Positions 169-28,862 of a stretch of DNA of 32,348 nt are shown here, piece by piece; within the stretch, counting starts at the first letter, position 1, and each line of letters begins with the position of its first letter. Origin of the DNA: Lentisphaeria bacterium (GTDB taxonomy: Bacteria > Verrucomicrobiota > Lentisphaeria > Victivallales > Victivallaceae); the NCBI GenBank assembly GCA_017504585.1, contig JAFVQX010000082.1, positions 1 through 32,348 on the forward strand, written 5' to 3'. Both the position numbers and the translations under genes were made by a program. The notes beneath the pieces are model-generated. The model did no database searches and was not told the origin of the DNA. It saw only the letters and a program-made list of their open reading frames with translations.

Positions 169-1443
169 TCAGTTGCTGCGCAGTACATCTATAGGATTCT
201 GCTGGGCGGCTTTCCATGCCGGGTAGGTACCGAACAGCACCCCCACAAAACTGGATATGAGCAATGCTGCTATAATGCTTACCGGCGAGTAATATGTCGG
301 CATATTGGCGTAAAACGTGATGATCTTGCTGATACCCACGCCCAGAAGAATACCAAGTATACCGCCCATACTGGTCAGAAACACCGTTTCGATAAGGAAT
401 TGGAACAAGATATCGCCTTTTTGAGCCCCCAGTGCCCGGCGGGTACCGATCTCTTTGCGCCGCTCGTAAACGCTTGCCAGCATGATGTTCATAATACCGA
501 TACCGCCCACGATCAGCGAAATACCGGCAATGGAACTCATAACGATAGTAAAGATATTCTGGGTGGCTTCCCGCTGTTTCAGAAGATCCAGCGGAATTAT
601 CACATCCCAATCTTTGATCTTGCTGTGGCTGGTGCGGAAATATTGAGTTACCCGGTTGGCGGTGTTGTCGATATATTCCAGCTTGTCCACCGTAATGATG
701 AACAAATCGAAGTCGATTTGGGTAACAACCGGTACTGCCGTTTCCTTATTTATTGTAAAGCTGCCGAAAAGCGACTCCGACAAAGTCAGCGGTATAAAAA
801 CCATATTGCCGGGTGTACCGAGTTCCGGATATTGGGTGCCCATGTCGTTATTTAATATACCGATGATGCGGTAACTTTCGGTATCGATCTTGAGCAGCGA
901 GCCGATAACGTCTGTTTTGCCCAGCTCAAAAAGTTTGCGCCTTGCTTCGGCGCCGATAACGCATACCGGCTGTTTATTGAGCATATCAGGCACAGAGAGC
1001 CATCGGCCCTGCTCAATGATCGAGCCGGAGTCTTTGAGGAAACTCGGCGTTACTGCTGCCAGCTTTACATCCAACCGGGTCAATCCCTTCAGTACGTTTT
1101 TCCGGGTATTGCGCACAATGGTTATGCGGGATATATTATCCATTTTCATCAGATTTTCGTAGTCAGCCCGGGTCAAGCCGTAACTTTCGGCATATTGAAT
1201 GGAGCGGCTGGTCTGGCTGTCCACCCCGCTGGGCGGCGGCTTTTGGGAGTAAACGATGATCTTGTCGATCCCCATAGCTTCGATCTGCCCCAACGCAGCA
1301 CGTTTGGCCCCTTCGGAAACCGCCAGCATGGCAATAACGCTGCCTACGCCGAAGATGATCCCCAGCGAGGTGAGTATGGAGCGCACTTTGTGCAAAAGTA
1401 TATTGTGCATTGACAAGCGCAATGCGTCCGAAGCCAGCATCAT
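169..1443 (-). CDS. MacB-type ABC transporter permease
   Basis: A 424-residue membrane protein of the MacB/FtsX-like permease family. It has one N-terminal membrane helix (about residues 20-42), a large periplasmic MacB-PCD-like domain (about 45-295), and three C-terminal helices (about 303-330, 346-372, 388-410). The segment GGIGIMNIMLASVYERRKEIG is typical of MacB. Unlike E. coli MacB the ATPase is a separate polypeptide, encoded just upstream with a 4-base ATGA-type overlap. Such permeases are mechanotransmitters: they use ATP to push periplasmic substrates through an adaptor and outer-membrane channel rather than to carry them across the inner membrane. It is the last gene of the secretin-adaptor-ATPase-permease operon. 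The start is one of two consecutive ATG codons (1443 or 1440). The substrate is unknown. Confidence 0.93.
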   Translation of the reverse strand: MMLASDALRLSMHNILLHKVRSILTSLGIIFGVGSVIAMLAVSEGAKRAALGQIEAMGIDKIIVYSQKPPPSGVDSQTSRSIQYAESYGLTRADYENLMKMDNISRITIVRNTRKNVLKGLTRLDVKLAAVTPSFLKDSGSIIEQGRWLSVPDMLNKQPVCVIGAEARRKLFELGKTDVIGSLLKIDTESYRIIGILNNDMGTQYPELGTPGNMVFIPLTLSESLFGSFTINKETAVPVVTQIDFDLFIITVDKLEYIDNTANRVTQYFRTSHSKIKDWDVIIPLDLLKQREATQNIFTIVMSSIAGISLIVGGIGIMNIMLASVYERRKEIGTRRALGAQKGDILFQFLIETVFLTSMGGILGILLGVGISKIITFYANMPTYYSPVSIIAALLISSFVGVLFGTYPAWKAAQQNPIDVLRSN

Positions 1444-2138
1444 TTTTTCCGGTACTCCTGATGTACGATCCTGCCGTCGCGCAAATGCACGATTTGATCA
1501 AAGTGTTCGTCAAGATCCGGGTTGTGGGTCACCATAATGATCGTTACGCCGCTGTCATTGAGTTCGTGAAAAAGCTTCATGATCTCCAGACCGGTTTTTT
1601 CGTCCAAATTCCCGGTAGGCTCGTCTGCCAGCAGAAAGGAGGGGTGGTTGCTCAAAGCTCTGGCGATGGCCACCCGCTGACACTCCCCGCCGGAGAGCTG
1701 GTTGGGCCGATGACCGAAACGGTGTCCCAAGCCTACCCGTTCAATAAGTTCATGAGCGCGCTGGCGGCGGACTTTGCGGTCCACTCTGCCGTAGAGCATA
1801 GGTATTTCCACATTCTGCTCAATGGTCAGATGCGGGAACAAATTGAAGCCCTGAAAGATAAATCCGATCTTGCGGTTGCGGATAGTCGCCAGTTCCGAGT
1901 CGGTCAGCAGATCCACCTGGACTTCTTCAAGCTGGTAGATCCCCGAAGTCGGCACATCCAGCATACCCAATATATTGAGCATGGTGGACTTTCCGGAACC
2001 GGAAGTACCCAATATGCCGAGAAATTCTCCTCGCGCCACACTCAAATTCACATCTTTGAGCACCGGCACCGGATTCCCCCCGGCATAGTAAGTTTTGAAT
2101 ATATGCTCCAAACTTACGATCGTATCCTTTGACTCCAC
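1440..2138 (-). CDS. ABC transporter ATP-binding protein (MacB/LolD type)
   Basis: An ABC ATPase with all core motifs. In the longer 234-residue reading these are Walker A GTSGSGKST (46-54), Q-loop at FQGF (97-100), signature LSGGE (150-154), Walker B LLADEP (171-176) and H-loop THN (206-208). The sequence is of the LolD/MacB subfamily, which energises periplasmic export or lipoprotein release. The frame is also open to a TTG at 2144, but the AAAGGA site lies one base from that TTG and an ideal seven bases from the GTG at 2138, so I prefer GTG (232 residues). It sits between the adaptor gene and the permease, whose start overlaps its stop, which implies coupled translation of an ATPase-permease pair. 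Confidence 0.94.
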   Translation of the reverse strand: MESKDTIVSLEHIFKTYYAGGNPVPVLKDVNLSVARGEFLGILGTSGSGKSTMLNILGMLDVPTSGIYQLEEVQVDLLTDSELATIRNRKIGFIFQGFNLFPHLTIEQNVEIPMLYGRVDRKVRRQRAHELIERVGLGHRFGHRPNQLSGGECQRVAIARALSNHPSFLLADEPTGNLDEKTGLEIMKLFHELNDSGVTIIMVTHNPDLDEHFDQIVHLRDGRIVHQEYRKK

Positions 2139-2162
2139 AGGCAAATCCTTTATTCTGGCAGT

Positions 2163-3683
2163 TTATTTGCTCTCGGTACGTCCCTGATGGGGGCGGTAAA
2201 GATAGATCACATCGTCTTCTTTAAGCCCGTCAAGGATCTGGACAAAGCGGTCGTTGGATTCGCCGATTTTTACATCGACTTCTTTATTGCCGCCGCCGGG
2301 CGTCTGCATATATACATAGAAGCGTTCTTTATCTTCGAAAATCGCTTCCACGGGTATAAAGAGCGTATCTTTTATGGTATTGGTGATCACTTCGATCTGC
2401 ACGCTCATACCGTTGACCAGCAGTTCAGACTGTTTGTCGAAACGTATGCGTGATTTGTAGACTTTGGGCGATGTTGAATCCCAGAAGATGATATTCACCG
2501 GCAGCGTGGGGATCATATCCACCGTGCCGTGGAATTTTACTGACGGCATACTGTCCGGCGTGACCACCACCCGGTCGCCAACTTTGACTTTGCTGCGATA
2601 CTGCTCGGGCAGATCCAGATTTACCACCATATCCGACATTTCCGGAATGGTCATCAGGATCATTCCGCGCCATACTTCCATACCCGGTTTGATATCCGGG
2701 TTGCTGTGGGGACGGTCGGGGTTGCCGTAGATCACGATGCCGTCGGCGGGGGCGTACAGGGTCATCATGCGCAGGAACTTTTCGTTCTGATCAAGATTTT
2801 CCCGGACGCGGCGGATGCGGCGGGTATAGTTGTGCAAACTGCGATTGGTTCTGGCACGGCTGGACTGGATGGCCACTTTGACCTTTTCCATATTCAAGTC
2901 AGCCTGATCCACTTCGTTGTAAAGTGCTTTGAGCTTGCTGGGGTCGTCGTACATTTTCCACAAGCGGCGGGAGCTTTCGTTATTTTCCAGCTCATTTTCT
3001 GCCGAATCGATACTGGACTGGGCGTTGGCAAGGTTTTTCTTGTATGCCTTTTGCTTGTCTTCGTCGGTATCAGTTTCCGGATTGGCTTTGTAGTTGCGGT
3101 AGGTTTCCCGGGCGTCATCCAGCTTGCTCTCGCTGTTGGAGATATTCAAGTCCAGCGAGTCGCGCTTCTGGCGCCGCTCAAAACGCAGATATTTGCGCAA
3201 GGCGTCGTCGGCTTTGGATACCCGGTCTTCGGCGGCTTTCATATTCGCTGCCTGGGTGCTTTCTTCCAGCTTCTGGGTTTCCAGCGCAAGTTCCTGTTCT
3301 TTTTCCAGATTTTCCAGTTCGATCTTGCCGTCAAGGACCCGGTTTTCCAGATCGGTGGGATCCAGCTTTACGACTACATCGCCTTTTTTGACCCGGGCAT
3401 TTTCTTCGATGATCCACACTATAGTGGAGCGCACGTTGGCTTGCGGCACCACCCGGTGTTTCTTTTTGGCGCTGACAGTGCCCGGCTGGGTGATCCCCAG
3501 CACCAGATCGCCTTTTTTAAGGGTAAAGGTACGGTCAACGCTGGCTTCGGCATTTTTCAGTTCGGCTGCAGCGGTTTTTTCTTCGGTGTCTGTATAGAGC
3601 CACGCCAGAGTGATTATTGCTGTTGCTGCAACAATCGCGACGCCCAAAAGCAGCAGCCGTAATTTTTTGCGGTCGATTTTCAT
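2163..3683 (-). CDS. MacA/HlyD-like periplasmic adaptor with an extra-long coiled-coil hairpin
   Basis: A 506-residue membrane-fusion (adaptor) protein. One membrane anchor (residues 8-30) is followed by the first lipoyl/barrel-sandwich half (about 52-110), a charged helical hairpin (about 112-308), the second lipoyl half beginning at LYAPADGIV (309-317), a beta-barrel (about 340-430) and a membrane-proximal domain. In tripartite exporters such proteins bridge the inner-membrane ABC permease and the outer-membrane channel. The roughly 195-residue hairpin is much longer than I would expect for E. coli MacA. The gene lies 9 bases after the secretin gene and 19-24 bases before the ATPase, in one operon. 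No TolC-type gene is present, so the neighbouring secretin is the obvious candidate channel; that is inference. An AAGG site lies 7 bases before the ATG. Confidence 0.88.
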   Translation of the reverse strand: MKIDRKKLRLLLLGVAIVAATAIITLAWLYTDTEEKTAAAELKNAEASVDRTFTLKKGDLVLGITQPGTVSAKKKHRVVPQANVRSTIVWIIEENARVKKGDVVVKLDPTDLENRVLDGKIELENLEKEQELALETQKLEESTQAANMKAAEDRVSKADDALRKYLRFERRQKRDSLDLNISNSESKLDDARETYRNYKANPETDTDEDKQKAYKKNLANAQSSIDSAENELENNESSRRLWKMYDDPSKLKALYNEVDQADLNMEKVKVAIQSSRARTNRSLHNYTRRIRRVRENLDQNEKFLRMMTLYAPADGIVIYGNPDRPHSNPDIKPGMEVWRGMILMTIPEMSDMVVNLDLPEQYRSKVKVGDRVVVTPDSMPSVKFHGTVDMIPTLPVNIIFWDSTSPKVYKSRIRFDKQSELLVNGMSVQIEVITNTIKDTLFIPVEAIFEDKERFYVYMQTPGGGNKEVDVKIGESNDRFVQILDGLKEDDVIYLYRPHQGRTESK

Positions 3684-3692
3684 TGCGTAACC

Positions 3693-5186
3693 TTATTTTT
3701 CAGCTTTTTTTGCTGTTTTTTCAACTGTGGGGACCTGGTCTTTTTTGACGGCAGATTTTTTGTCGTCACGGCCTTTTTCCGGATCGTTTGCTTTGCGGCG
3801 GCGTTCGGGCTCGTCGATAAACTCTTCTTTGAGCTGCTGAAGCGTGGATTTGAGCTTGGGCAGCGACGATGAGTTCTGCAATATTTCGCCGATCCTGCTG
3901 CTGGTGTTGGCTACTTCATCGGGGTCAAAGGCTATGCCGGAGGGATTTTCGGCAGGACGCAGGATGTGAACACGCATAAAGAATACCAGCTGCACGATTT
4001 CCTGTTCCCGGTTTTTGGAAGTAAAGAGTTCGCCGATGTAGGGCAGGTCGCTCAACAGCGGAGTGCGGTCTTCCTGCATACTGGTGCGGTTGCTGTAAAG
4101 TCCGCCCATCATAATGACTTCGCCATCGCGCAAAGTCAGGGTCGTATCCAGATTGCGGATGGAAATAACCGGCACCTGGAAGGATATCGCTTCGCCGGTG
4201 GAGGCATCGTACCCCTGATTGATACGCTGATACTGCTGCACGGTGGATACTTCGGGTGCTACCCGCAGAGTTACCAGATTGTCGTTGATGATCATGGGGG
4301 TCAAAGTCAGAGTCACACCCACCCGGCGGAAGGTGGTGGCGATATTGGTGCCGCTGGAAGTTGTGCTCATTTCCTGAATAGGTATATCCTGACCGGTGGA
4401 GAGACTGGCTTCTTCGTTGCGGCTGATCACCAGATTGGGCGAAGTCAGAACTTTGGCGTCCTGACCGTTGAGCACCCATTGGAAAGATGTCTGCATACTT
4501 TTGGTGCCTGATACATACGGGAACCAGTTCAGATTCAATCCGGCGGCTTCGGAACTGCCGCTCAAGTTGTTATTGACGATCCCGCCGGTGGATTTGAGCA
4601 ATGTATTTTCGTGCAAAGCATTCTTGCCCCGGTCGCTGTCGTTGAATTGGAACGAAAGATTGCGGTTCATGCCGTCGGAAAACAATACTTCGATAACCTT
4701 TACTTCCACCACCACTTGCGGCATGGGTTTGTCGATGGCAAGCAGAGCATTTTTCAGATTTTCGATATTTTCCGAGCTGTCGTAGATGGTCAGCAAATTC
4801 TGTTCGGCATGAAACTCCACCGAACCGTTGCGCAGCATATTTTCAATAGCAATAACGCTGGCGCGGTTGGCCTGGATATAGCGGCAGCGATAGATAAGCG
4901 TGGATCTGCCGTTGCTGCCTTTGATGATGGTAAAGTCCGGCTTGGGCAGCGGGGTGACGATGCGTTTGGCGCTGGCGGGTACCGGTTCCAGCAAAGCTTT
5001 GAGTTGTTCGGCAACGTTTTTTACATTGCGTTTGCCTTGCTCCAGATATTCCGGAGTTTTTTTAATTGGCTCGGAAGCCAGAAAGGAGTTGATCGCATCA
5101 TTGGCAACACATTCGGTTGCACCGTTCAAAAAAGAAAATGCTGCGGCGGCGGTCAGACATTTTGCAACACCGGATAATCGGATCAT
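3693..5186 (-). CDS. GspD/PilQ-type secretin, short form
   Basis: A 497-residue outer-membrane secretin. A signal-peptide-like N-terminus (about 1-28) leads to a helical stretch (30-75), a single short N-domain (about 97-152) and the secretin beta-domain (about 155-410). The latter has the family hallmarks VPVISIRNLDTTLTLRDGE (338-356), MMGGLYSNR, the PLLSDLPYIGELF loop (376-388) and a terminal hydrophobic strand. Full-length GspD has several N-domains (N0-N3); here there is room for about one. The last 85 residues are highly charged and probably disordered. Secretins form large gated rings for type II/III secretion, type IV pili and phage exit. No gspE, F, C or L gene is adjacent; instead it leads an operon with a MacA-like adaptor and MacB-like ABC exporter. 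The ATG at 5186 follows an AAAGGA site. Confidence 0.9.
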   Translation of the reverse strand: MIRLSGVAKCLTAAAAFSFLNGATECVANDAINSFLASEPIKKTPEYLEQGKRNVKNVAEQLKALLEPVPASAKRIVTPLPKPDFTIIKGSNGRSTLIYRCRYIQANRASVIAIENMLRNGSVEFHAEQNLLTIYDSSENIENLKNALLAIDKPMPQVVVEVKVIEVLFSDGMNRNLSFQFNDSDRGKNALHENTLLKSTGGIVNNNLSGSSEAAGLNLNWFPYVSGTKSMQTSFQWVLNGQDAKVLTSPNLVISRNEEASLSTGQDIPIQEMSTTSSGTNIATTFRRVGVTLTLTPMIINDNLVTLRVAPEVSTVQQYQRINQGYDASTGEAISFQVPVISIRNLDTTLTLRDGEVIMMGGLYSNRTSMQEDRTPLLSDLPYIGELFTSKNREQEIVQLVFFMRVHILRPAENPSGIAFDPDEVANTSSRIGEILQNSSSLPKLKSTLQQLKEEFIDEPERRRKANDPEKGRDDKKSAVKKDQVPTVEKTAKKAEK

Positions 5187-5221
5187 TTTTTCATTCCTTT
5201 GTTTTTTTCAACCGACAGTAA

Positions 5222-5371: not shown

Positions 5372-6310
5372 TCAAAAACAGCCGAAATCGGAGATGCGTT
5401 CCGGTTTGGTCTGCACAAATTCCAGCGTCGAGTGGGTTATGTTATGGGCTTTCAGGATTTTTTTCAGTTCCAGGCGGGTCGCTTCCTGTTTTTGAGGATC
5501 GTGGAGCATTATTTGAGCTGTAAAGCTGTTTTCGGTGGTACTCAATGCTCTGATATGGGTGTGGAATATATCGGCAATGTTCTGATGGTTGTGCAGTTCG
5601 TCAAGGAGCAGGGCGGTATTTATATTGCGAGGCACACCATCCAGCAGCAAGTTGGCGCTTTCGCAGAAAAGCTCCCGGCTGCCCATGGCGATCAGCCCGG
5701 CGATGATCAAACCGGTTATGGGGTCAATGATATTCCATCCGGTAAGGGCGATCAAGCCGCCGGAAACCACCACCCCCAGCGATACAAGGGTATCGGCAAG
5801 CATGTGCAAGTAAGCGCTTTTTACATTCAAATCTTCATTTTTTCCTTTGCTCAAAAGCAGTACAGTAAAGCCGTTGACCACGATCCCGGCGGCAGCAGTT
5901 GCCATGACCGCACAGCCGGAAACCGCTTCGCCGGTACGGAAGCGGCTTATGCACTCCCACACGATCATTACGATAGCGGCTGCCAGCACCAGAGCGTTGA
6001 CAAATGCTGCCAGTATGGTCGCCCGTTTGAAGGCATAGGTAAAGCGTTGATTGGGGGATTTTTTCAGGAGCAGAAAAGCTGCCAGCGAGATCACCAGACC
6101 GCCCACATCCCCCAGATTATGCCCGGCATCGGCAAGCAATCCCGCTGAATTATAGTGCCAGCCAAGATAAAACTCGCCCGCTACAAAGAGTATATTTACA
6201 GTTATAGCCCAGATGAACCGTTGGGCAAGTGCCGGGTCAATCCCGTGATGATGATGGTGATGATGCCCCCCATGTTTGTGGTGATGGCAGTGGCAGTGAG
6301 CGTGTTCCAT
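5372..6310 (-). CDS. Cation diffusion facilitator (CzcD/ZitB-like) metal efflux transporter
   Basis: A 312-residue CDF antiporter that exports Zn2+ (perhaps also Cd2+ or Co2+) from the cytoplasm in exchange for protons. The N-terminus is extremely His-rich (15 His and 2 Cys in the first 22 residues), a probable metal-loading tail. Six membrane helices follow. The metal site is recognisable: D61 and the HNLGD motif (64-68) in helix 2, and H169-x3-D173 (HMLAD) in helix 5. A His-loop between helices 4 and 5 is absent. The C-terminal cytoplasmic domain (about 215-312) is a normal CDF dimerisation domain. It is co-transcribed with an ArsR/SmtB-type sensor 14 bases upstream, so it is almost certainly metal-induced. 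Confidence 0.95.
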   Translation of the reverse strand: MEHAHCHCHHHKHGGHHHHHHHGIDPALAQRFIWAITVNILFVAGEFYLGWHYNSAGLLADAGHNLGDVGGLVISLAAFLLLKKSPNQRFTYAFKRATILAAFVNALVLAAAIVMIVWECISRFRTGEAVSGCAVMATAAAGIVVNGFTVLLLSKGKNEDLNVKSAYLHMLADTLVSLGVVVSGGLIALTGWNIIDPITGLIIAGLIAMGSRELFCESANLLLDGVPRNINTALLLDELHNHQNIADIFHTHIRALSTTENSFTAQIMLHDPQKQEATRLELKKILKAHNITHSTLEFVQTKPERISDFGCF

Positions 6311-6324
6311 AACAAAAAATTACC

Positions 6325-6699
6325 TTATTGATCTTTGGAGTGTTCGCTTTTTTCGCTGATGTGGGTCTTGCATAAATCAAACAGCATGGGTATATGGTAA
6401 TCATCCAGACTGTAAAAGATGCTTTTGCCTACCCGGCGGGACTTTACAAGCCGCATCTGCCGCAGCTGTTTAAGGTGGTGGGATACTGCGGGCTGGGTCA
6501 TTTGCATTATCCGGGTTATATCGCAAACGCAAAGTTCGCTTAACAGCAGAGCGTTGATGATTTTCAGCCTCGTGGGGTCGGCAAAGCACTGGAAACGCTC
6601 TGCCATATATGCCAGAGTCAGGTCATCGGTCAAATCTTTGGCGACTTTTTCCACACAATGAGCATGGTCGCCGCCGCATTGAATGAGTTCTTCGGTCAT
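6325..6699 (-). CDS. ArsR/SmtB-family metal-sensing repressor
   Basis: A 124-residue winged-helix repressor. The recognition region is TQPAVSHHLKQLR (68-80). Two metal sites can be read. The alpha-3 Cys pair is in ELCVCD (C57, C59), with extra Cys/His near the N-terminus (C8, H12, H14, C15), as in ZiaR/CadC-type sensors. The alpha-5 site matches the SmtB pattern D-x-H-x10-H-x2-E exactly (D100, H102, H113, E116). Zinc binding should release it from DNA and derepress itself and the CDF gene 14 bases downstream. An imperfectly symmetric SmtB-like operator lies within its own promoter (6719-6746). Zinc, cadmium or lead are plausible inducers; the alpha-5 site favours zinc. Confidence 0.94.
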   Translation of the reverse strand: MTEELIQCGGDHAHCVEKVAKDLTDDLTLAYMAERFQCFADPTRLKIINALLLSELCVCDITRIMQMTQPAVSHHLKQLRQMRLVKSRRVGKSIFYSLDDYHIPMLFDLCKTHISEKSEHSKDQ

Positions 6700-7697: not shown

Positions 7698-8402
7698 TTA
7701 CAGTTTATCAAAAACAGTAAACGGGTGATAATCGTTGTTCTGGCATTGCTCTTTGCTGAATGTTTCCACATGGGTATCCGCCATCAGCACATTTGCCAAC
7801 TTGTTATGAGCAAGATAAATGCCTTTTTTGCTGCTGCTGCTGCAAGAACACTCAAGAGTGTACCACATACTTTTGTCGGCTGAACAGTGGGAGTCAGCCA
7901 TCAGCGGAGTTTTGGATGGATCACCGGCAGTCTTGCTGCCTTTGGGCCCGGCAATGAATCCTTCCAATAACCCCTTGCCGGTATACCACGGGCCGTTGCC
8001 ATGATAATTGTATCCATCAATAAAGCCATAGATGTATGAGGCACTATCCATGGAGTTTTCACTATAACACAACAGTTCTGAACTGCCCGGACAGATGAAC
8101 CACTTGGCTTCCTGCGGGTCAAGCCCTTTATCGTGCTTTTTAAGCAATCCGGCATTGACCAACTTTTCTACATAGGTTTTGGCACTGGTAAAACCCCTTG
8201 ATCCGGTTGTATAACCGTTATTGGCATCTACATAAAGCATTTGGATTATGCCCAGCTGTTTCAGATTTGCCGTGCAGTTGGCGGCTTTGGCTCTTGCCCG
8301 GGCTGCGGAAAGTGCGGGCAAAAGCATTGCTGCCAAAATGGCAATGATGGCAATCACAACCAATAATTCGATCAAGGTGAAAGAATAGCGGGATTTTTTC
8401 AT
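7698..8402 (-). CDS. Type II secretion-like pseudopilin (prepilin N-terminal cleavage/methylation domain)
   Basis: A 234-residue protein with a classic class III signal: basic MKKSRYS, then the [19 protein letters not shown] helix with Glu at position +5 after the cleavage site. The C-terminal globular domain ends in a variant of the H-x9-DG block ([15 protein letters not shown]), as in the large pseudopilin family of Lentisphaerota, Planctomycetota and Verrucomicrobiota. A Cys/Ser cluster (ECSCSSSS) is near residue 185. It is processed by a prepilin peptidase and stays in the inner membrane or assembles into a pseudopilus. A strong AGGAGG site precedes the ATG. It is the last gene of a glycan operon, 21 bases behind the 923-residue secreted protein, which suggests a role in placing or exporting those proteins. 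No other pilus gene is close. Confidence 0.92.
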
Positions 8403-8423: not shown

Positions 8424-11195
8424 TCATTTTTGTTGTTTGAGTATAAGTTGAGCCGCTTCTTCGCGGACTTTGTCGGCTTCGGCCGGGTCGTAGGCTTTGT
8501 CGATCACCACCCGTTTGGCGGCGGTTTTCAAAAAAGCCTGTGCTTCGGGGGCGTCCTTGCCGACTTCCCGGAGCTTATCCAGATATTTTACATCGGTTAT
8601 GCCCTGCCGGAGTGCCATGTAGCGGATGGAAGGTACAGCCATTTCTTCGGAGTTATAGAGCAAGGCGGCTCCGCCATTACCTTTCCAGATAGTGTTGGGC
8701 AAGCCGTTGACCGCCTGATACATGTCGTTGAAATCCAGATTGTGATATTCGCCGAACCATGCGTTGTGGCGGAAGTTTTTATAGAGCGGTGCCCGCACAT
8801 CTGTATAACATGTGTAATGACCGAAAGTTACGCCTTTGGCCTGTTGGGTTTTGATAAAATCCAAACGCTCTTTGCCGGAAAAATATCCGCTTCGCCACAA
8901 GATCCAATGGTCTACATAGGGGGCAATGGTTTTCATATTTTCCAGACTCATGATACCGGCCCCCAAAGTCATGCAGACCTTGATCCGGGGATCGGCTTTG
9001 TGGAGAGTTTCCAGCTGATATTTTACATCGTTGAAGGCTTTTACCGGCGGTTCATCGTAAACTTCGATATAACACTTGGCGGGATCAAAGCCGTTCTTTT
9101 CCAGAAATGTTTCCAGCGTTTTCACCCATTCGGCAAACAAATGCAAATTCTTTTTGCCGTAAAGCTGGGTAAAGGTGTGGACTGCGCTGTAACAGACAAA
9201 GACCGTTTTGCCGCCCATAGATTTTATTATTGCCGCCCGCTGGGCTGCCACTGGGGCATGGGGGGTAAATTTGCCATCTTTGAGCGGGAATTTAAGCGAC
9301 CACGGATTGAGCTGATAAAACTTCATGCCGATAGCATCTTGCAGGATGCGTGCCGTATCGCTGGTGTACGGTGAAAAATAGTTGCAGGGGCGGCGGGGGA
9401 ATTTATCCAGCACAATATTATCGACCGTTAAAGTCAGGGGGATATCTTTCATATCGCCGGAGTAATTCAAGTTGCCGTGCCCGTAGCCCCGGCGGGTAAA
9501 GACGCCTTTGCCCGTGATTTCGATAACGCGGATGCGGCCTTTGTATTCGCCGGGCTTAAAATCGGTAGTGTCAAAGTCCAGCCAGACCAAGGCACACTCT
9601 CCGGCAGGCACCGTTACGGTGCGGGCTTCGTTCATTTTGGGCAGCGGGTCAAGGATGGCACTGTTGCCGGAGGTGTTGTCCCGGTGGGCGACAGCTTCCC
9701 GGTAAGTTACGCCGGGGAAGAGTTTGCCGTTGTGCCATTCAAGGGATTTATCTTTGGGTATTTCGGCGGTGATTTGATAGACGGCAGTTTTTTTGCTGTT
9801 GTTGTAAATGGCAAGGGGCAGGGGCTTGATTTCGTTGATTGCTGCCCGCAGTTCGATTTTGTTTACCGGCTCAAACAGGGCATCGGGCAGGAAGGGCAGC
9901 GAAAAGTCGTCGGTGATATTTACCGGGGCACAGAGCATTTTCTGCTTGCGGAAAGAGTCAAGTTTTTCCTGAAGAGCTTTGGCTTCAGCTTCGGCTTGAG
10001 CTTTTTCAAAGGCGGCACGGGTGGTATTATCAGGGAAACTCCCGCAATAGATCTTGCCGAAATATTTTAAGTCAGAAAAACCGCTTGTTACCTTTGCCCA
10101 CGAACTCAACTCGTTGGCAGCACGCCGCTGACGGGCAAGGTTAAAGCCGATAAAATCGCCTTTTTGCGGCTTCTCCCAGCCCAAACTGGCAAAGGGTATG
10201 GTGGCAACACCGCCCCAGCCTTTGGATGTAACATGGGTTTTGACCGACCACGCCAGCGGTTTGCCGTTGACAATACTGGTATAGGTGTAATTGTTGGCAG
10301 AAACTGCAAATTGGGAGTATTCACGGTCAGACTTTTTGGGCGTAAAGAAAAATTCCACCACATCGCCGCTCCACAGATTGCCGGGGGCTTTTGCCGGAGT
10401 AACTTGCTGGGGTTCTTCGCAATCAAAAGTTATGACAAAAGCGTTGTCGGTCATCTTGATATTAAAAGAAGTTTTGGCAGTCAGATCCTTGGAGCTTTTG
10501 AAGCGGTGAAAATCGCTGTAAGCAGTGCCGTCAGCCGGGATGATCTTTTTGATATCAAGCTCAACTTTAGCCGGGGCGGCAGCGTTGTTCAAGGCGGGGC
10601 GTTTGCGTTCTTTGATCACGATATTGTCAAAGAGGATGTGATCGCCCACTTGATGAACCAGGGGCGAATAACGCTCGTTGTTGCCTATGGAAAGAGTCAG
10701 GGCGGCACTTACACTGTCAGCTTTGGTGCGGAAAGTGCCTTTGTAAGTAATCCACTCATCGCTGCGTTTTACCGGAGCGGCGCTGGATTTATAAGTTTTG
10801 CCATGCCAGAGAGTCTGTTTGTCGTTCCACAATGTTACCCGCAGCATGGCACCGGTTTTGATGGGATTTTTTATATCAATGGAAAAATCGTAAGTGGTGT
10901 TGGGTTTGCACTTGAATCCGCCGGGGGCGTTATTGCTGTCGTATTTGCCGCCGATCCATACGGCAGCTTGCAGCGAGCGGTATTTGCCCGAGGTGCGCAG
11001 TTTGTCAAACGCCAATTTTCCGCAGCGGTTCCAGGTGGCATTTTCGGTAAAGACCGTAAGTCTGCCACCATTGGTGCGGAATTCCGGGCCGTACTTCTTT
11101 TCGTCAGCGTTAAAGTCGCTGTTTTTTATAATGTTCTGACCATAAAGAGCCACTGAAAGCATGGTCAGAACTGTTGGCAAAAATAACTTTTTCAT
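8424..11195 (-). CDS. Secreted multidomain glycoside hydrolase-like protein (CBM-like, CBM9-like and DUF4091 domains)
   Basis: A 923-residue secreted protein. After a signal peptide (about 1-20) comes a carbohydrate-binding-like jelly roll (21-197), then a CBM9/DOMON-like beta-sandwich (about 220-385) and a helical linker (393-425). A beta-rich region follows and then a C-terminal TIM-barrel-like DUF4091 domain (about 600-915). The EVYDEP motif near residues 710-715 and the RQGITDVKYLDKL stretch near the end are characteristic of DUF4091, where the acidic pair may be catalytic. Expected role: extracellular or periplasmic hydrolysis of a polysaccharide; substrate unknown. The first 197 residues are about 60-65% identical by eye to the whole protein encoded immediately upstream, so the two arose by duplication. 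It lies in the operon with a GH20-like enzyme and a pseudopilin. Confidence 0.85.
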   Translation of the reverse strand: MKKLFLPTVLTMLSVALYGQNIIKNSDFNADEKKYGPEFRTNGGRLTVFTENATWNRCGKLAFDKLRTSGKYRSLQAAVWIGGKYDSNNAPGGFKCKPNTTYDFSIDIKNPIKTGAMLRVTLWNDKQTLWHGKTYKSSAAPVKRSDEWITYKGTFRTKADSVSAALTLSIGNNERYSPLVHQVGDHILFDNIVIKERKRPALNNAAAPAKVELDIKKIIPADGTAYSDFHRFKSSKDLTAKTSFNIKMTDNAFVITFDCEEPQQVTPAKAPGNLWSGDVVEFFFTPKKSDREYSQFAVSANNYTYTSIVNGKPLAWSVKTHVTSKGWGGVATIPFASLGWEKPQKGDFIGFNLARQRRAANELSSWAKVTSGFSDLKYFGKIYCGSFPDNTTRAAFEKAQAEAEAKALQEKLDSFRKQKMLCAPVNITDDFSLPFLPDALFEPVNKIELRAAINEIKPLPLAIYNNSKKTAVYQITAEIPKDKSLEWHNGKLFPGVTYREAVAHRDNTSGNSAILDPLPKMNEARTVTVPAGECALVWLDFDTTDFKPGEYKGRIRVIEITGKGVFTRRGYGHGNLNYSGDMKDIPLTLTVDNIVLDKFPRRPCNYFSPYTSDTARILQDAIGMKFYQLNPWSLKFPLKDGKFTPHAPVAAQRAAIIKSMGGKTVFVCYSAVHTFTQLYGKKNLHLFAEWVKTLETFLEKNGFDPAKCYIEVYDEPPVKAFNDVKYQLETLHKADPRIKVCMTLGAGIMSLENMKTIAPYVDHWILWRSGYFSGKERLDFIKTQQAKGVTFGHYTCYTDVRAPLYKNFRHNAWFGEYHNLDFNDMYQAVNGLPNTIWKGNGGAALLYNSEEMAVPSIRYMALRQGITDVKYLDKLREVGKDAPEAQAFLKTAAKRVVIDKAYDPAEADKVREEAAQLILKQQK

Positions 11196-11221
11196 AATAG
11201 ACCTTTACATGTTTCCCGGAG

Positions 11222-11869
11222 TTACTTTTCTGTTGTGGGTGCAGCTTTTTTTCCATCGGCTGCGGGAGCTTCAACGCGTTCTTTGATCACGATATTATCA
11301 AAGAGGATATAATCGCCCACTTTATTGATCAATTTGGCATAACGCTCATCATTGCCGATCGACAGGGTCAAACTGGCTGTAACGCTGTCGGCATTGGTTT
11401 TGAAACTGCCTTTATAGGTGGTCCACTCGTTACTGACTTGCAGCGGAATTTTAGCCAGTACCGTTCTTTGGGTTTTGCCGTACCAGAGAGTTTGTTTATC
11501 ATTCCATAAAGTTGCCCGGATCATGCCGCTGACTTTGACCGGAGTTTTTATATCAATGGAAAAATCGTAAGTGGTATCGGGTTTGCACACAAAGCCGCCG
11601 GGCTTCTGATTTACAGTATATTTGCCGCCGATCCATACGGCAGCTTGCAGAACGCTGAATTTGCCGATTTTACGCACTTTGTTGAACTCAAGTTTTCCGC
11701 AGCGGTTTTTGGCGGCTTCTTCGGTAAAGACCGTAAGTCTGCCGCCGTTGGTGCGGAATTCCGGACCGGGCTTTTGGGCGTGGGCATTAAAATCGCTGTT
11801 TTTTACAATGTTCTGGGCGGAAGCCGCCAAGACGGTTACCAGCAGGGCTGCTGCAAATAATTTTTTCAT
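11222..11869 (-). CDS. Secreted stand-alone carbohydrate-binding-like protein
   Basis: A 215-residue protein with a signal peptide (about 1-19, MKKLFAAALLVTVLAASAQ) followed by one jelly-roll domain. It is closely similar throughout to residues 1-197 of the next protein in the operon, sharing runs such as GPEFRTNGGRLTVFTE, LQAAVWIGGKY and TTYDFSIDIK. The short tail after KERVEAP is low-complexity. There are no catalytic domains. It is most likely a free glycan-binding partner of the 923-residue enzyme, perhaps on the cell surface. The binding fold is inferred from CBM4/9-like patterns (NIVKNSDFN start, FDNIVIKE end), not proven. A strong GAGGAGG site precedes the ATG. Confidence 0.8.
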   Translation of the reverse strand: MKKLFAAALLVTVLAASAQNIVKNSDFNAHAQKPGPEFRTNGGRLTVFTEEAAKNRCGKLEFNKVRKIGKFSVLQAAVWIGGKYTVNQKPGGFVCKPDTTYDFSIDIKTPVKVSGMIRATLWNDKQTLWYGKTQRTVLAKIPLQVSNEWTTYKGSFKTNADSVTASLTLSIGNDERYAKLINKVGDYILFDNIVIKERVEAPAADGKKAAPTTEK

Positions 11870-11893
11870 AAGAAAACCTCCTCTTGTTGTTTA

Positions 11894-13330
11894 TTATTTT
11901 TGTAAATTTTCCGATGTTTGTCCGGCTGCTTGCTGCAAGTTATGCTGCCACTTTTGTTTTGCTTCTTCAATGACTTTGCCCCAGTATTGATTTTGTTCCA
12001 GCCGGGCGGCAAAATGCTGTTCCCAGAGTTCATCCCATTGGTTTTTATAGAAATATCTGGTGATCACCGGAGTCAGATCGTTATAGAGTTTTTCGCAGCG
12101 TTCCGCAGCTATCCTTACGCCGTCAGCCCAGTTGCCGGTCAATTCCGGCGGCGAACCGCCATTGCGGTAGCTGGCAAGGGAAGCTTGATTGTTGGAAAAA
12201 CACATATCCATATAATCCAGCAGCTCATCCATTTTATTGAACGCTTGCAATATTTCAGCAATACTGCGGTGATAAAGAGCTTTTTCACAAAGTTCTGCAA
12301 GAACTTTTCCGGCGATCGCCGGTTCATAATTGAAGTAACGGATCATGGTAAAATAATCCAGATCCACCCCGAAAAAATCTCTGCCGTAACTGTTGATAAA
12401 CTCCTTGCGGTCGGCAATCAAACCATCGGTCAGGGTCTTGCCGGAATAGGCGGTCATCAAAACGGCTTGCGTCAAGTTGGTGTTGTAAGGGCTCAAACAT
12501 TGATTCCTGCCCCAAAGGGTGGCAATATGTCCGGTGAACCGTGGGTATTTTGGGTGGATACGCCCCCAGTCATCCACATTATCCATCTTGATTTCGTGGG
12601 GATTCATCACATAGTTGTTTTTATTGGCCTGCAAACTGCTGGCTCCCCACAGTTCAATATCCATTCCGGCAATTTTTTCCAAATACTGCCAATCGATCTC
12701 GCGATAGAGCCATACACAGCAGACCACCCCGGAAGGCAAACGCTTGAATTGCTCAATGCCGTATTTGCGGAATACATCGTCCCAGATAACCGCTTTCATA
12801 TTTTTGGATTGTATGTATTCAACACACCGTGCGACCCGCTTGATGTAAAAATCAAGTTTGTTTTCGCCGCAACGCTGACAGGGTTCTCTCATGCGGCACT
12901 CGTCGGCGCCGATGTGGAAGATTTTTGTATCCGGAAAGATTTCCAGAATTTCGTCGGTCATTTTCTGCCAGAGTTCGTAACTTGCTTCCAGCGCAAGACA
13001 CCACTGGTAAGTTGTCCCCATTGCTCCGCCATCGCGTAAATGCTGAAATGCCGGATACTTTAAGAGGTAATCCAAGTGACCGATGCTTTGCATCAGCGGT
13101 ACTATTTCTATATTGCGTTCTTTGCAATGCTGTGCCAGACTCCGGAAATCATCTTTGCTCCATGCCGCCGGGTGATGAAACCCCCGGGTGGCTTCAAAGG
13201 GGAATTTGTCCTCGAATTCCAGAATTATGGTGTTGAATCCCTGTGCGGCAAAAATGTCGATCATCTCCAAAGCGTGATCCAGCTTGGGGATCACCGCTTT
13301 CATATCAAAATGCAGTGCTTTGATGTTCAT
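11894..13330 (-). CDS. GH20-like beta-N-acetylhexosaminidase family protein, cytoplasmic
   Basis: A 478-residue TIM-barrel glycosidase of the GH20 type. The catalytic Asp-Glu pair is in HIGADECR (H139, D143, E144), preceded by barrel-strand motifs LEFEDKFPFE (38-47) and PLMQSIGH (78-85). A CQRC pair (151-154) follows the active site. GH20 enzymes release terminal GlcNAc or GalNAc from glycans by substrate-assisted catalysis. There is no signal peptide, so it should act inside the cell on imported oligosaccharides. Its ATG overlaps the stop of the upstream regulator gene (ATGA), and the secreted binding proteins follow 24 bases later. Exact specificity is open; the barrel departs from classical hexosaminidases outside the core motifs. 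Confidence 0.85.
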   Translation of the reverse strand: MNIKALHFDMKAVIPKLDHALEMIDIFAAQGFNTIILEFEDKFPFEATRGFHHPAAWSKDDFRSLAQHCKERNIEIVPLMQSIGHLDYLLKYPAFQHLRDGGAMGTTYQWCLALEASYELWQKMTDEILEIFPDTKIFHIGADECRMREPCQRCGENKLDFYIKRVARCVEYIQSKNMKAVIWDDVFRKYGIEQFKRLPSGVVCCVWLYREIDWQYLEKIAGMDIELWGASSLQANKNNYVMNPHEIKMDNVDDWGRIHPKYPRFTGHIATLWGRNQCLSPYNTNLTQAVLMTAYSGKTLTDGLIADRKEFINSYGRDFFGVDLDYFTMIRYFNYEPAIAGKVLAELCEKALYHRSIAEILQAFNKMDELLDYMDMCFSNNQASLASYRNGGSPPELTGNWADGVRIAAERCEKLYNDLTPVITRYFYKNQWDELWEQHFAARLEQNQYWGKVIEEAKQKWQHNLQQAAGQTSENLQK

Positions 13331-14409
13331 GAATGATTACCCTTCTTGATATTTCTTATGCTTTTGCGTATTATCAGTTTGGTGGGGATCTGCAAAATGG
13401 TCCGGTGGTTGGAAGGCGTTTTTAATTCGCTGAACAACAGATCTGCCGCCTGGATGTTGCACTCTTTAATGGAGCGGTCAATAGTGGTGAAAAACGCATT
13501 GTGCTGCAGTTCCGGATCATGCCCTTCGTAATTATCCACGCTCAATATATCCGGCAGCATTTCCGGCGACAGCCCGTTTTGCTCAATATACGAGTATACC
13601 CCACAGCTGATATGGTCAGAGAGCAGGATAAAAAGTGAGTTTTTTACATCATCTTCTGTAAACCGGCCCGCCAGATTATGACCGAATATCACATTGCCAT
13701 ATCCGCTTGTTACATTGGTGTTTTGAATGATCACCCGTGATGTGACACCGGTCATGTTGAAGTAATCAACCAGTCTTTGAGCAGTTTCAGTAGAGTTTCT
13801 TGTTTGAGTCGGCATAATTACTATTCTGGCGTATTTATTCAGATCGCAGCATTGACAGAACTCTTTAAGCGCTGTGGAAAAATCTGCCATTACCTGATTA
13901 CAAAGCAAACGTTTTTCCTGAAAAAATGCACCAAATACAACTATGGGCTTATTGAATGTGTGCAATATAAGCAAACTGTTATCATCCAAAAAGCTTGCAT
14001 GGAGCAGCAACCCATCCAAATTACGCAAGAGTTTTTTGCCGGATTCAATGTTTTGCAAAGCCCTGTACTGTATGTGCATTATATCCACATCTTTGTTGCT
14101 TTCCAGATGATCCATCAATGCAACCAGAGCTTCGTTGACTGCGGCATCAATAAAGGGAGCCGGAGTATTCCCAAGATACCCGATCTTTTTCCTGGTTTCG
14201 GGCTTTTTGTTAAGAAAATACCCTTTGCTTGGGACAGAATAAATGAGATTTTCTGCACATAAATCAAGCAAAACCGCTGCGGCTGTGCCCGGGGCGCAAT
14301 GCATTCTCGCTGCCAGTTGGCGTACCGATTCCAAACGGTGTTTTGCCGGGAGATTGCTGGAAAGCAACTCCTGCCGGTATTGATCGAGAATTTGTTTTTT
14401 TGATGCCAT
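13327..14409 (-). CDS. GntR/LacI-type transcriptional regulator (wHTH plus periplasmic-binding-like sensor)
   Basis: A 360-residue regulator. Residues 1-68 form a GntR-type winged helix (ESVRQLAARMHCAPGTAAAVLLDL), and from about 72 onward (KKIGYLGNTP) the protein has a LacI-like ligand-binding domain. This AraR/GntR-LacI hybrid design is usual for sugar-responsive regulators of glycan-utilisation genes. It is the first gene of the operon and overlaps the GH20-like gene by 4 bases, so it probably controls its own operon. An inverted repeat inside its promoter (14437-14457) is the likely operator. The inducer is presumably a sugar released from the target glycan; nothing in the sequence identifies it. 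Confidence 0.88.
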   Translation of the reverse strand: MASKKQILDQYRQELLSSNLPAKHRLESVRQLAARMHCAPGTAAAVLLDLCAENLIYSVPSKGYFLNKKPETRKKIGYLGNTPAPFIDAAVNEALVALMDHLESNKDVDIMHIQYRALQNIESGKKLLRNLDGLLLHASFLDDNSLLILHTFNKPIVVFGAFFQEKRLLCNQVMADFSTALKEFCQCCDLNKYARIVIMPTQTRNSTETAQRLVDYFNMTGVTSRVIIQNTNVTSGYGNVIFGHNLAGRFTEDDVKNSLFILLSDHISCGVYSYIEQNGLSPEMLPDILSVDNYEGHDPELQHNAFFTTIDRSIKECNIQAADLLFSELKTPSNHRTILQIPTKLIIRKSIRNIKKGNHS

Positions 14410-27101: not shown

Positions 27102-28853
27102 TTATTTGCTGTGGTATTCGGTGTGCAGCAAGTGGTGGGCTTTTTCGCCGCCGACTTCACCGAGGAACTCCGCATAAAGTTTCTGGATATCTTTGTTTTC
27201 GTGAGAGAAACGCAGAACTTTGCGTTCATCTTCGGTATACAAGCCCTTCATGCGTTTTTCCAGCAGCGCCGAATCGCCATGCAGGAAGGGCTGACCGCCG
27301 CCATTGATACATCCGCCGGGGCACGCCATGATTTCAATAGCCTGGAACCGGTTGGGGTCTTCGCGCACCATTTCCAAAACCTTGCGGGCATTGCCCAGTC
27401 CGGAGCAAACTGCAACTCTGATGCTCTTGCCGGGAGTGATCTCCACCGAAGCTTCTTTGATGCCGTCCAAACCGCGGACTGCCCGGAAGTTGATGGCATC
27501 GCCTTCCAGATTTTTGCCGTTGAGCATAAAGTAAACCGAGCGGCAAGCCGCTTCCAAAACCCCGCCGGTAACACCGAAAATATCCGCAGCACCGCTGGAT
27601 TCGCCCAACGGATTGTCAAACACATCATCTTCCAGATTGGCAAGGTTCACACCGGCTTCTTTGAACATCTTGCAAAGTTCGCGGGTGGTCACTACATAGT
27701 CGACATCACGCACGCCGTCTTTGGCAAATTCCGGACGGGCGGCTTCGTATTTTTTTGCCTGACAGGGCATGATGGAAACCACCACCAGATCTTTGGGCGC
27801 CACGCCGATTTTTTCGGCGTAGTAGCTTTTGGCAATAGCTCCGAACATCTGCTGGGGCGATTTGCAACTGGAGGGTATGTGCAGCAGATCCGGGAAGTTG
27901 TGTTCAATAAAGTTGATCCACCCGGGGCAGCAGCTGGTCAGGATCGGCAACTTTTTATTGGCTTTGATGCGTTCAACGATTTCGTGGCCTTCTTCCATAA
28001 TGGTCAGGTCAGCAGAAAAGTTGGTGTCGAAAACTTTATCGAACCCCAACGCCCGCAAGCCTGCCGCCAGTTTGCCGGTCACCGGTGCACCCGGCTCAAA
28101 CCCAAACTCCTGACCAATGGCTACGCGGACTGCCGGAGCGGTTTGAACCACCACGGTTTTAGCGGGATCGTTGATCGCATCCCAAACCTTTTTTACATAG
28201 CTTATACCGGTAATGGCACCTACCGGGCAGACATTTACGCACTGTCCGCAGAATGTGCAGTTGGATTCCGCCAGCGGAATAAGGTTGGCAGTACCGACCT
28301 TGGCGCTGAAGCCGCGACCGTAGCCGGTGAGGGCGCCCACCGTCTGGATCTTATTGCAGACAGTTTCGCAGCGCCGGCACATGATGCATTTTGAGAGATC
28401 CCGGCGGATAGCTTCGCTGGAGGCATCGGGCTTAAAACGGTTGCGCTCGCCAAGGTACTTGATTTCTTCAATGCCGAACTCGGCTGCCAGTTCCTGCAAT
28501 TCGCAATTCTGGTTTTTTGCGCAAGTCATACAGGTCTGCGGGTGATCGCTCAAAAGCAGTTCCAATATGGTTCGGCGGGCGTTCAGGGCACGGCGGCTGT
28601 TGGTGTGGACCTTCATGCCTTCCATGACCGGGGTCGCACAGGAAGGCGCCAGATTGCGGCGGTTTTCCACTTCGACCACGCAAATACGGCAGGAGGCCGG
28701 ATTGTTGGATATACCGCAACCGCCGATCTTGTCGCAATGACAGAGGGTGGGGATCTTGATATTGAGTGCTCTGGCTGCATCCAGAATGGTTGAGTTAGCC
28801 GGCACAGATACAGCTTTGCCGTTTATCGTAAGGTTGACCATTTTACTATCCAT
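27102..28853 (-). CDS. hydA: [FeFe]-hydrogenase catalytic subunit (HydA/HndD type, group A3-like)
   Basis: A 583-residue iron-only hydrogenase that evolves or consumes H2. In order: an N-terminal [2Fe-2S] domain (Cys at 38-58 and 72), a His-ligated [4Fe-4S] site (HPQTCMTC, 104-111, and C117), two [4Fe-4S] clusters (CIMCRRCETVC, 156-166; CTFCGQCVNVC, 199-209), and the H-cluster motifs TSCCPGW (306-312), IMPCQAKKYE (361-370) and MACPGGCINGGGQP (509-522). There is no extra C-terminal [2Fe-2S] domain, unlike the longer Thermotoga HydA. It lies 9 bases behind the NuoF-like gene, in the order hydC-hydB-hydA known from NAD(H)/ferredoxin-linked bifurcating enzymes. The maturation genes hydE, hydF and hydG are not in the window. 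The start at 28853 is chosen for its spacing to AAAGGA. Confidence 0.96.
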   Translation of the reverse strand: MDSKMVNLTINGKAVSVPANSTILDAARALNIKIPTLCHCDKIGGCGISNNPASCRICVVEVENRRNLAPSCATPVMEGMKVHTNSRRALNARRTILELLLSDHPQTCMTCAKNQNCELQELAAEFGIEEIKYLGERNRFKPDASSEAIRRDLSKCIMCRRCETVCNKIQTVGALTGYGRGFSAKVGTANLIPLAESNCTFCGQCVNVCPVGAITGISYVKKVWDAINDPAKTVVVQTAPAVRVAIGQEFGFEPGAPVTGKLAAGLRALGFDKVFDTNFSADLTIMEEGHEIVERIKANKKLPILTSCCPGWINFIEHNFPDLLHIPSSCKSPQQMFGAIAKSYYAEKIGVAPKDLVVVSIMPCQAKKYEAARPEFAKDGVRDVDYVVTTRELCKMFKEAGVNLANLEDDVFDNPLGESSGAADIFGVTGGVLEAACRSVYFMLNGKNLEGDAINFRAVRGLDGIKEASVEITPGKSIRVAVCSGLGNARKVLEMVREDPNRFQAIEIMACPGGCINGGGQPFLHGDSALLEKRMKGLYTEDERKVLRFSHENKDIQKLYAEFLGEVGGEKAHHLLHTEYHSK

Positions 28854-28862
28854 AATAAATAC

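Follow-up and report, generated by a model that had tools for sequence, protein, structure and literature searches.

A secretin gene at the head of a MacAB-type operon

The stretch of DNA analyzed here, referred to as the window, comprises 32,348 nucleotides and is the full length of contig C77 in the draft genome of a Lentisphaeria bacterium (2.94 Mb, estimated to be 81% complete). On its minus strand, between positions 169 and 5186, open reading frames for a secretin, a MacA/HlyD adaptor, a MacB-type ATPase, and a MacB-type permease are almost contiguous. An initial annotation had placed four tightly packed genes here, and all four reading frames as well as their family assignments were confirmed. 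The region contains the following features:

3693..5186, minus strand: secretin, 497 aa (Pfam PF00263, 7e-40)
2163..3683, minus strand: MacA/HlyD-type periplasmic adaptor, 506 aa (Pfam HlyD_D23, 3e-12), with an N-terminal membrane helix
1440..2144, minus strand: MacB/LolD-type ABC ATPase, 234 aa (ABC_tran, 4e-33), TTG start assumed
169..1443, minus strand: MacB-type permease, 424 aa (MacB_PCD, 6e-28, and FtsX, 1e-25)
2769..3356, minus strand: coiled-coil hairpin of the adaptor, residues 110-200 and 208-305
about 3063-3083, minus strand: hairpin tip of the adaptor, residues 201-207
5285-5258, minus strand: candidate promoter TTGAAA-16-TATCTT with a TG before the second hexamer (consensus match only)
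5194-5200, minus strand: candidate ribosome-binding site AAAGGAA before the secretin (consensus match only)

Secretin and adaptor genes are separated by 9 bp, adaptor and ATPase genes by 18 bp, and the ATPase and permease genes overlap by 4 bp. Since the window is the whole contig, it stops 168 bp past the permease. The description of these genes as 'fused by operon' applies to co-transcription at most, as there are no fused proteins. The one promoter candidate reported upstream does exist as a consensus match, but such sites are near noise level in this region (12 found versus 7.9 ± 2.9 expected).

MacB is the best NCBIfam model for the ATPase, whose sequence carries the full set of catalytic motifs (Walker A, LSGGE, Walker B, and H-loop), and the permease combines a MacB periplasmic core domain with an FtsX domain. 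Sequence matches also relate the two proteins to LolD and LolCE. Held against the MacAB-TolC pump, the cassette contains the MacB-type ATPase and permease with its periplasmic core domain and a MacA-like adaptor with lipoyl/barrel domains and a hairpin; a TolC/OEP partner is absent from the operon, and a secretin fills that slot.

The remainder of the window is of mixed content. Just upstream of the secretin (5372-6699) lie a CDF-type cation exporter and an ArsR/SmtB-type regulator, which probably form a metal-response operon of their own. A protein with a prepilin-type N-terminal methylation motif is encoded at 7698-8402, followed at 8424-14409 by a carbohydrate-related run that includes a weak GH123-like protein, a carbohydrate-binding domain, a GH20-like protein, and a periplasmic-binding-protein-like domain. 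Further away (27102-30794), an [FeFe]-hydrogenase large-subunit protein adjoins a NuoF-like subunit, possibly as part of an electron-bifurcating hydrogenase.

A short secretin and a MacA-like adaptor with an altered tip

The AlphaFold model of the secretin (mean pLDDT 76, with residues 205-234 poorly predicted) suggests a compact architecture: a signal helix (8-20), a conserved helix (45-66), a single N3-like domain (84-151), the gate and barrel (157-409), and C-terminal helices (422-466). Both the secretin domain and the gate fold that characterize the superfamily are present. Best Foldseek matches are GspD, PilQ, InvG, and pIV, that is, secretins of type II, pilus, type III, and phage systems, and the sequence matches include GspD and PilQ. 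No match to an N0 family was found in the 47 members of the cassette's secretin family; the type II GspD of the same genome does match N0.

For the adaptor, the AlphaFold model (mean pLDDT 89) predicts a membrane helix and a two-helix hairpin. Its best Foldseek match is MacA of MacAB-TolC, and MacA proteins are also the closest solved relatives among its PDB sequence matches. According to the alignment, E. coli MacA carries the R-x3-L-x6-S motif at the hairpin tip, and it is this motif that docks TolC. All six adaptors that adjoin TolC in close relatives have the strict form R-x3-L-x6-[ST]; the 48 rows of the alignment of secretin-linked adaptors (A3) lack it throughout. These rows include one from a Planctomycetota genome (L164), which probably belongs to a TolC-type cassette because it keeps a looser version of the tip. 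This version, L-x4-[FYSA]-x-[STN], is found in 25 of 26 TolC-linked adaptors, against 4.8 expected from shuffling, and in 11 of 41 secretin-linked ones, where 9.7 are expected and the matches are at chance level. Since chance matches arise in about a quarter of the rows, the loose pattern is not diagnostic alone.

Secretin-linked adaptors also have tips that are about 8 residues longer than those of their TolC-linked cousins, with aligned hairpin lengths of 207 and 199 residues, respectively. We considered whether the hairpin had become long to suit the secretin and rejected this idea: the TolC-linked cousins are nearly equal in length, and the tip alone differs.

Conservation of the cassette

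Among 61 genomes of the same order, the window's own included, secretin and adaptor orthologs are both found in 38, and these are the identical 38 genomes for both genes. Secretin orthologs scored at least 138 bits and other secretins at most 104 bits; for the adaptor the separation is clearer, with at least 322 bits for orthologs and at most 33 bits for other proteins. The two genes lie side by side in 36 of the 38. In one of the remaining genomes (G059) each is located at a contig end, and in the other (G040) they reside on different contigs (L080 and L081/L151) away from the ends, a situation unique among the relatives that reflects either a real split or a mis-assembly.

Gene maps of the relatives show the order secretin-adaptor-ATPase-permease on a single strand with varying flanks. 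An all-against-all comparison of these loci revealed no further widely conserved neighbor, and the neighborhood comparison likewise revealed no conserved cargo gene beside the cassette. In a subset of relatives only, the recurring neighbors include a divergent ABC ATPase and a prephenate dehydrogenase.

When public genomes were scanned with the alignment of the adaptor, 80 loci emerged, with record titles that include Victivallis vadensis DSM 14823, Lentisphaerota strain zth2 (a complete genome), Kiritimatiellae, Pontiellaceae, and Verrucomicrobia. Six contigs begin at or near the adaptor, leaving 74 loci with room upstream. The secretin directly precedes the adaptor in 71 of these with a median gap of 3 bp, and the complete four-gene order is visible in 61 of the 71 within the stretch of DNA covered. 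The three exceptions are a frame-broken adaptor (L103), a larger overlap (L158), and the separated genes of G040 (L151). Plasmid carriage was also considered and set aside, as plasmids gave just weak matches to the adaptor superfamily.

The survey of gene order proposed in the initial annotation therefore turned out in favor of conservation, with adjacent genes in 36 of the 61 order-level genomes and in 71 of the 74 public loci. This order is far beyond chance, as dozens of genera share it despite unrelated flanks, and, as judged from the sequences, the cassette is an inherited unit. Evolutionary distances of secretin and adaptor correlate with 0.88 over 60 loci and with a partial correlation of 0.51 given the permease, which fits co-inheritance and weakly supports a contact between the two proteins.

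The outer-membrane slot in related cassettes

What occupies the position of the secretin in more distant cassettes? A profile search with the adaptor in 289 genomes of the phylum gave matches in 126, which fall into tiers. Sampled matches above 430 bits are secretin cassettes. Those between 200 and 350 bits mostly show a protein of about 500-650 residues where the secretin would be, although one of them (L242) is another secretin cassette. By Pfam, all 18 slot proteins tested from this and the weaker tier belong to the OEP/TolC family. Such TolC-slot sister cassettes occur in Verrucomicrobiota and Planctomycetota; in a survey of the latter phylum, to which the genome of L164 belongs, the sampled loci are mostly TolC cassettes and include two secretin cassettes (L281 and L293).

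Some relatives depart from both layouts. Two cassettes from the same survey, L277 (4596-8087, genome G436; gene order ATPase-adaptor-permease) and L278 (3905-7502, genome G551), have no adjacent outer-membrane gene. In three others (L248:2082-8328, L249:2224-8157, and L258:2893-8974) a protein of 850-884 residues with adaptor domains is accompanied by a second adaptor, the ATPase is fused to the permease, and no outer-membrane gene was recognized alongside.

A tree was built from ATPase and permease, leaving the outer-membrane partner aside, with E. coli MacAB as the root. In it, 41 secretin cassettes group into a single clade amid the TolC cassettes (SH-aLRT 99). When the long-branched Planctomycetota rows are added, the secretin rows remain one group, now with L277 and L278 inside it, and support drops to SH-aLRT 82. 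An AU test of the clade rejected it, but scored L277 and L278 as outsiders and was disregarded for this reason. Since there is a single secretin clade among TolC cassettes, one replacement of TolC by a secretin suffices, and this would be the simplest history.

Other secretin and TolC systems of the same genome

The genome also encodes a type II locus with a GspC-like protein, GspD with its N0 domain, GspE, GspF, GspG, and a GspJ-like gene, and a separate locus with PilM and two secretins. Genes for GspE, GspF, GspG, and GspC are absent from the secretin cassettes and are found in this genome at the separate type II locus. Three more short secretins are located on contigs C191 (L086:8376-11568) and C57 (L087:1618-3078), two of them adjacent (606 and 475 aa), and the list of open reading frames shows no recognized partner genes near them.

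On contig C193 (L089:7961-12948) lies a TolC-adaptor-ATPase-permease operon with the layout of the cassette and TolC in first position, which recurs in five relatives and offers an internal control for experiments. Additional TolC-family proteins are encoded on C107 and C4 without an obvious adjoining MacAB. The idea that the cassette is a MacAB system missing its TolC was rejected in view of the separate TolC-MacAB operon.

The initial annotation had named a variable gene order, or a type II system without a secretin of its own next to a TolC that pairs with this adaptor, as findings that would speak against it. Neither was observed, because the order is conserved and both systems come with an outer-membrane component of their own: the type II locus has its GspD, and the TolC-MacAB operon has its TolC.

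A secretin in place of TolC: proposed machine and alternatives

We consider it quite likely that the cassette encodes a tripartite exporter of the MacAB type, with a minimal secretin ring replacing TolC. Judging by gene position and homology, the motor is of MacB type, and the secretin occupies the place where related cassettes have TolC. That the secretin takes TolC's place, as first suggested in the initial annotation, gains support from the conserved order, the TolC-family protein in the sister slot, the single clade on the motor tree, the lost tip signature, the MacA-like fold of the adaptor and the genuine secretin fold, the correlated distances of secretin and adaptor, and the outer-membrane components that the other systems have for themselves. 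On the other side stand the lack of a linked cargo gene, the lower clade support once the Planctomycetota rows are included, the separated genes of G040, and the two cassettes without an outer-membrane gene (L277 and L278). Beyond this, we infer a physical complex, a direction of export, and an opening of the gate.

MacB has been described as closing its periplasmic domains with ATP while transporting nothing across the inner membrane (PMC8277102), and the Aat system shows that a related pair of separate permease and ATPase can export a periplasmic protein (PMC7943197). Following the mechanotransmission cycle of MacB, permease-ATPase pairs in the inner membrane would close their periplasmic domains on ATP binding and thereby push periplasmic cargo into the adaptor ring. 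Because of the homology with MacB, cargo is expected to be taken from the periplasm, which it would reach by another route, probably Sec, and to be sent through the secretin. The long hairpins of the adaptors would span the periplasm and may meet the short secretin via its N-terminal helix or single N3-like domain, not via a TolC-type tip, and the gate would then open to the outside. Secretins of known structure have about 12-15 subunits, which a six-fold adaptor ring does not trivially match; a secretin of twelve subunits could fit such a ring. Secretin pores are wide, so that export of folded proteins appears possible. An extended claim, which we put forward tentatively and would at present lean against, is that Planctomycetota-Verrucomicrobiota-type bacteria have here a secretion system in its own right. 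A mechanotransmission ABC motor would move large periplasmic cargo, possibly in folded form, through a secretin, and no pilus, pseudopilins, or GspE-type ATPase would take part.

In an improbable alternative, adaptor, ATPase, and permease would act as an assembly or extraction device similar to Lol or YbbAP that helps to position the secretin, or a lipid or lipoprotein associated with it, and the secretin itself would serve another system. The kinship of ATPase and permease with LolD and LolCE is in line with this, yet the trio includes a MacA-like long-hairpin adaptor, a part of tripartite pumps that, to our knowledge, Lol systems lack, and the TolC-family protein in the slot of sister cassettes is an indication of a duct. 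Also in line with the alternative, some type VII ABC transporters work without exporting their substrate through a duct (PMC12646458). Even less credible is an ordinary MacAB-type efflux pump that uses a TolC encoded elsewhere, for instance on C107 or C4, with the secretin linked but independent: the linkage is kept over phylum-level distances with near-zero gaps, the secretin cassettes form a single clade on the motor tree, and the adaptor has lost the TolC signature. Finally, characterized secretins mostly belong to type II, type IV pilus, or related systems and the sequence matches to GspD and PilQ would fit a remnant or variant of one of these that lost its other genes, but membership was rejected in view of the neighborhood (GspE/F/G and PilM do not adjoin the cassettes in the distant loci surveyed, and relatives share no further gene widely), the missing N0 domain for a GspC/PilP partner, and the separate type II and PilQ-like loci of the genome, which have secretins of their own, making this the least plausible reading.

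Comparison with known systems

Filament machines, injectisomes, and phage export are the settings in which characterized secretins operate, and the characterized tripartite pumps with MacB rely on TolC-like ducts. A secretin conserved alongside MacAB would cut across this division. It would mean that evolution can swap one outer-membrane duct for another, with the adaptor tip changing to match, and would give Lentisphaerota, Kiritimatiellota, and relatives an export route unrecognized until now. Moreover, nature would have provided an experiment on the adaptor features required for docking TolC as opposed to a secretin, testable in the cultured strain Victivallis vadensis DSM 14823. A search of full-text literature by title and abstract returned no description of such a cassette; subscription papers were mostly outside its coverage, and an earlier account is possible. 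MacAB-like genes may also be present in the Geobacter oxpG type II operon, although no mention of them was found in the text consulted on it.

With GspD and PilQ the cassette's secretin shares the outer-membrane family and the gate fold, whereas an N0 domain, a GspC/PilP partner, a GspE-type ATPase, and pseudopilins are missing. Filamentous phage pIV (7ofh among the Foldseek matches) is likewise a secretin outside type II, type III, and pilus machines, but serves virion export together with inner-membrane phage proteins and not with a MacB motor. The Aat system (AatPABC), which exports a periplasmic protein, resembles the cassette in its separate Lol/MacB-related permease and ATPase, its adaptor, and its outer-membrane channel; this channel is type-I-like where the cassette has a secretin, and Aat alone comes with dedicated cargo genes and the acyltransferase AatD (PMC7943197).

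Close parallels are found in MacAB-TolC, which likewise combines a MacA-like adaptor with a MacB-type ATPase and a permease that has the periplasmic core domain, is encoded in a compact operon, and would be expected to take cargo from the periplasm. In contrast to it, the cassette has a secretin for TolC, ATPase and permease are separate chains, and the adaptor hairpin lacks the TolC tip motif and is about twice as long as its counterpart in E. coli MacA. The TolC-linked cassettes of Verrucomicrobiota and Planctomycetota share hairpin length and gene order and provide the nearest relatives of motor and adaptor, but have a TolC-family protein in first position and a TolC-type adaptor tip.
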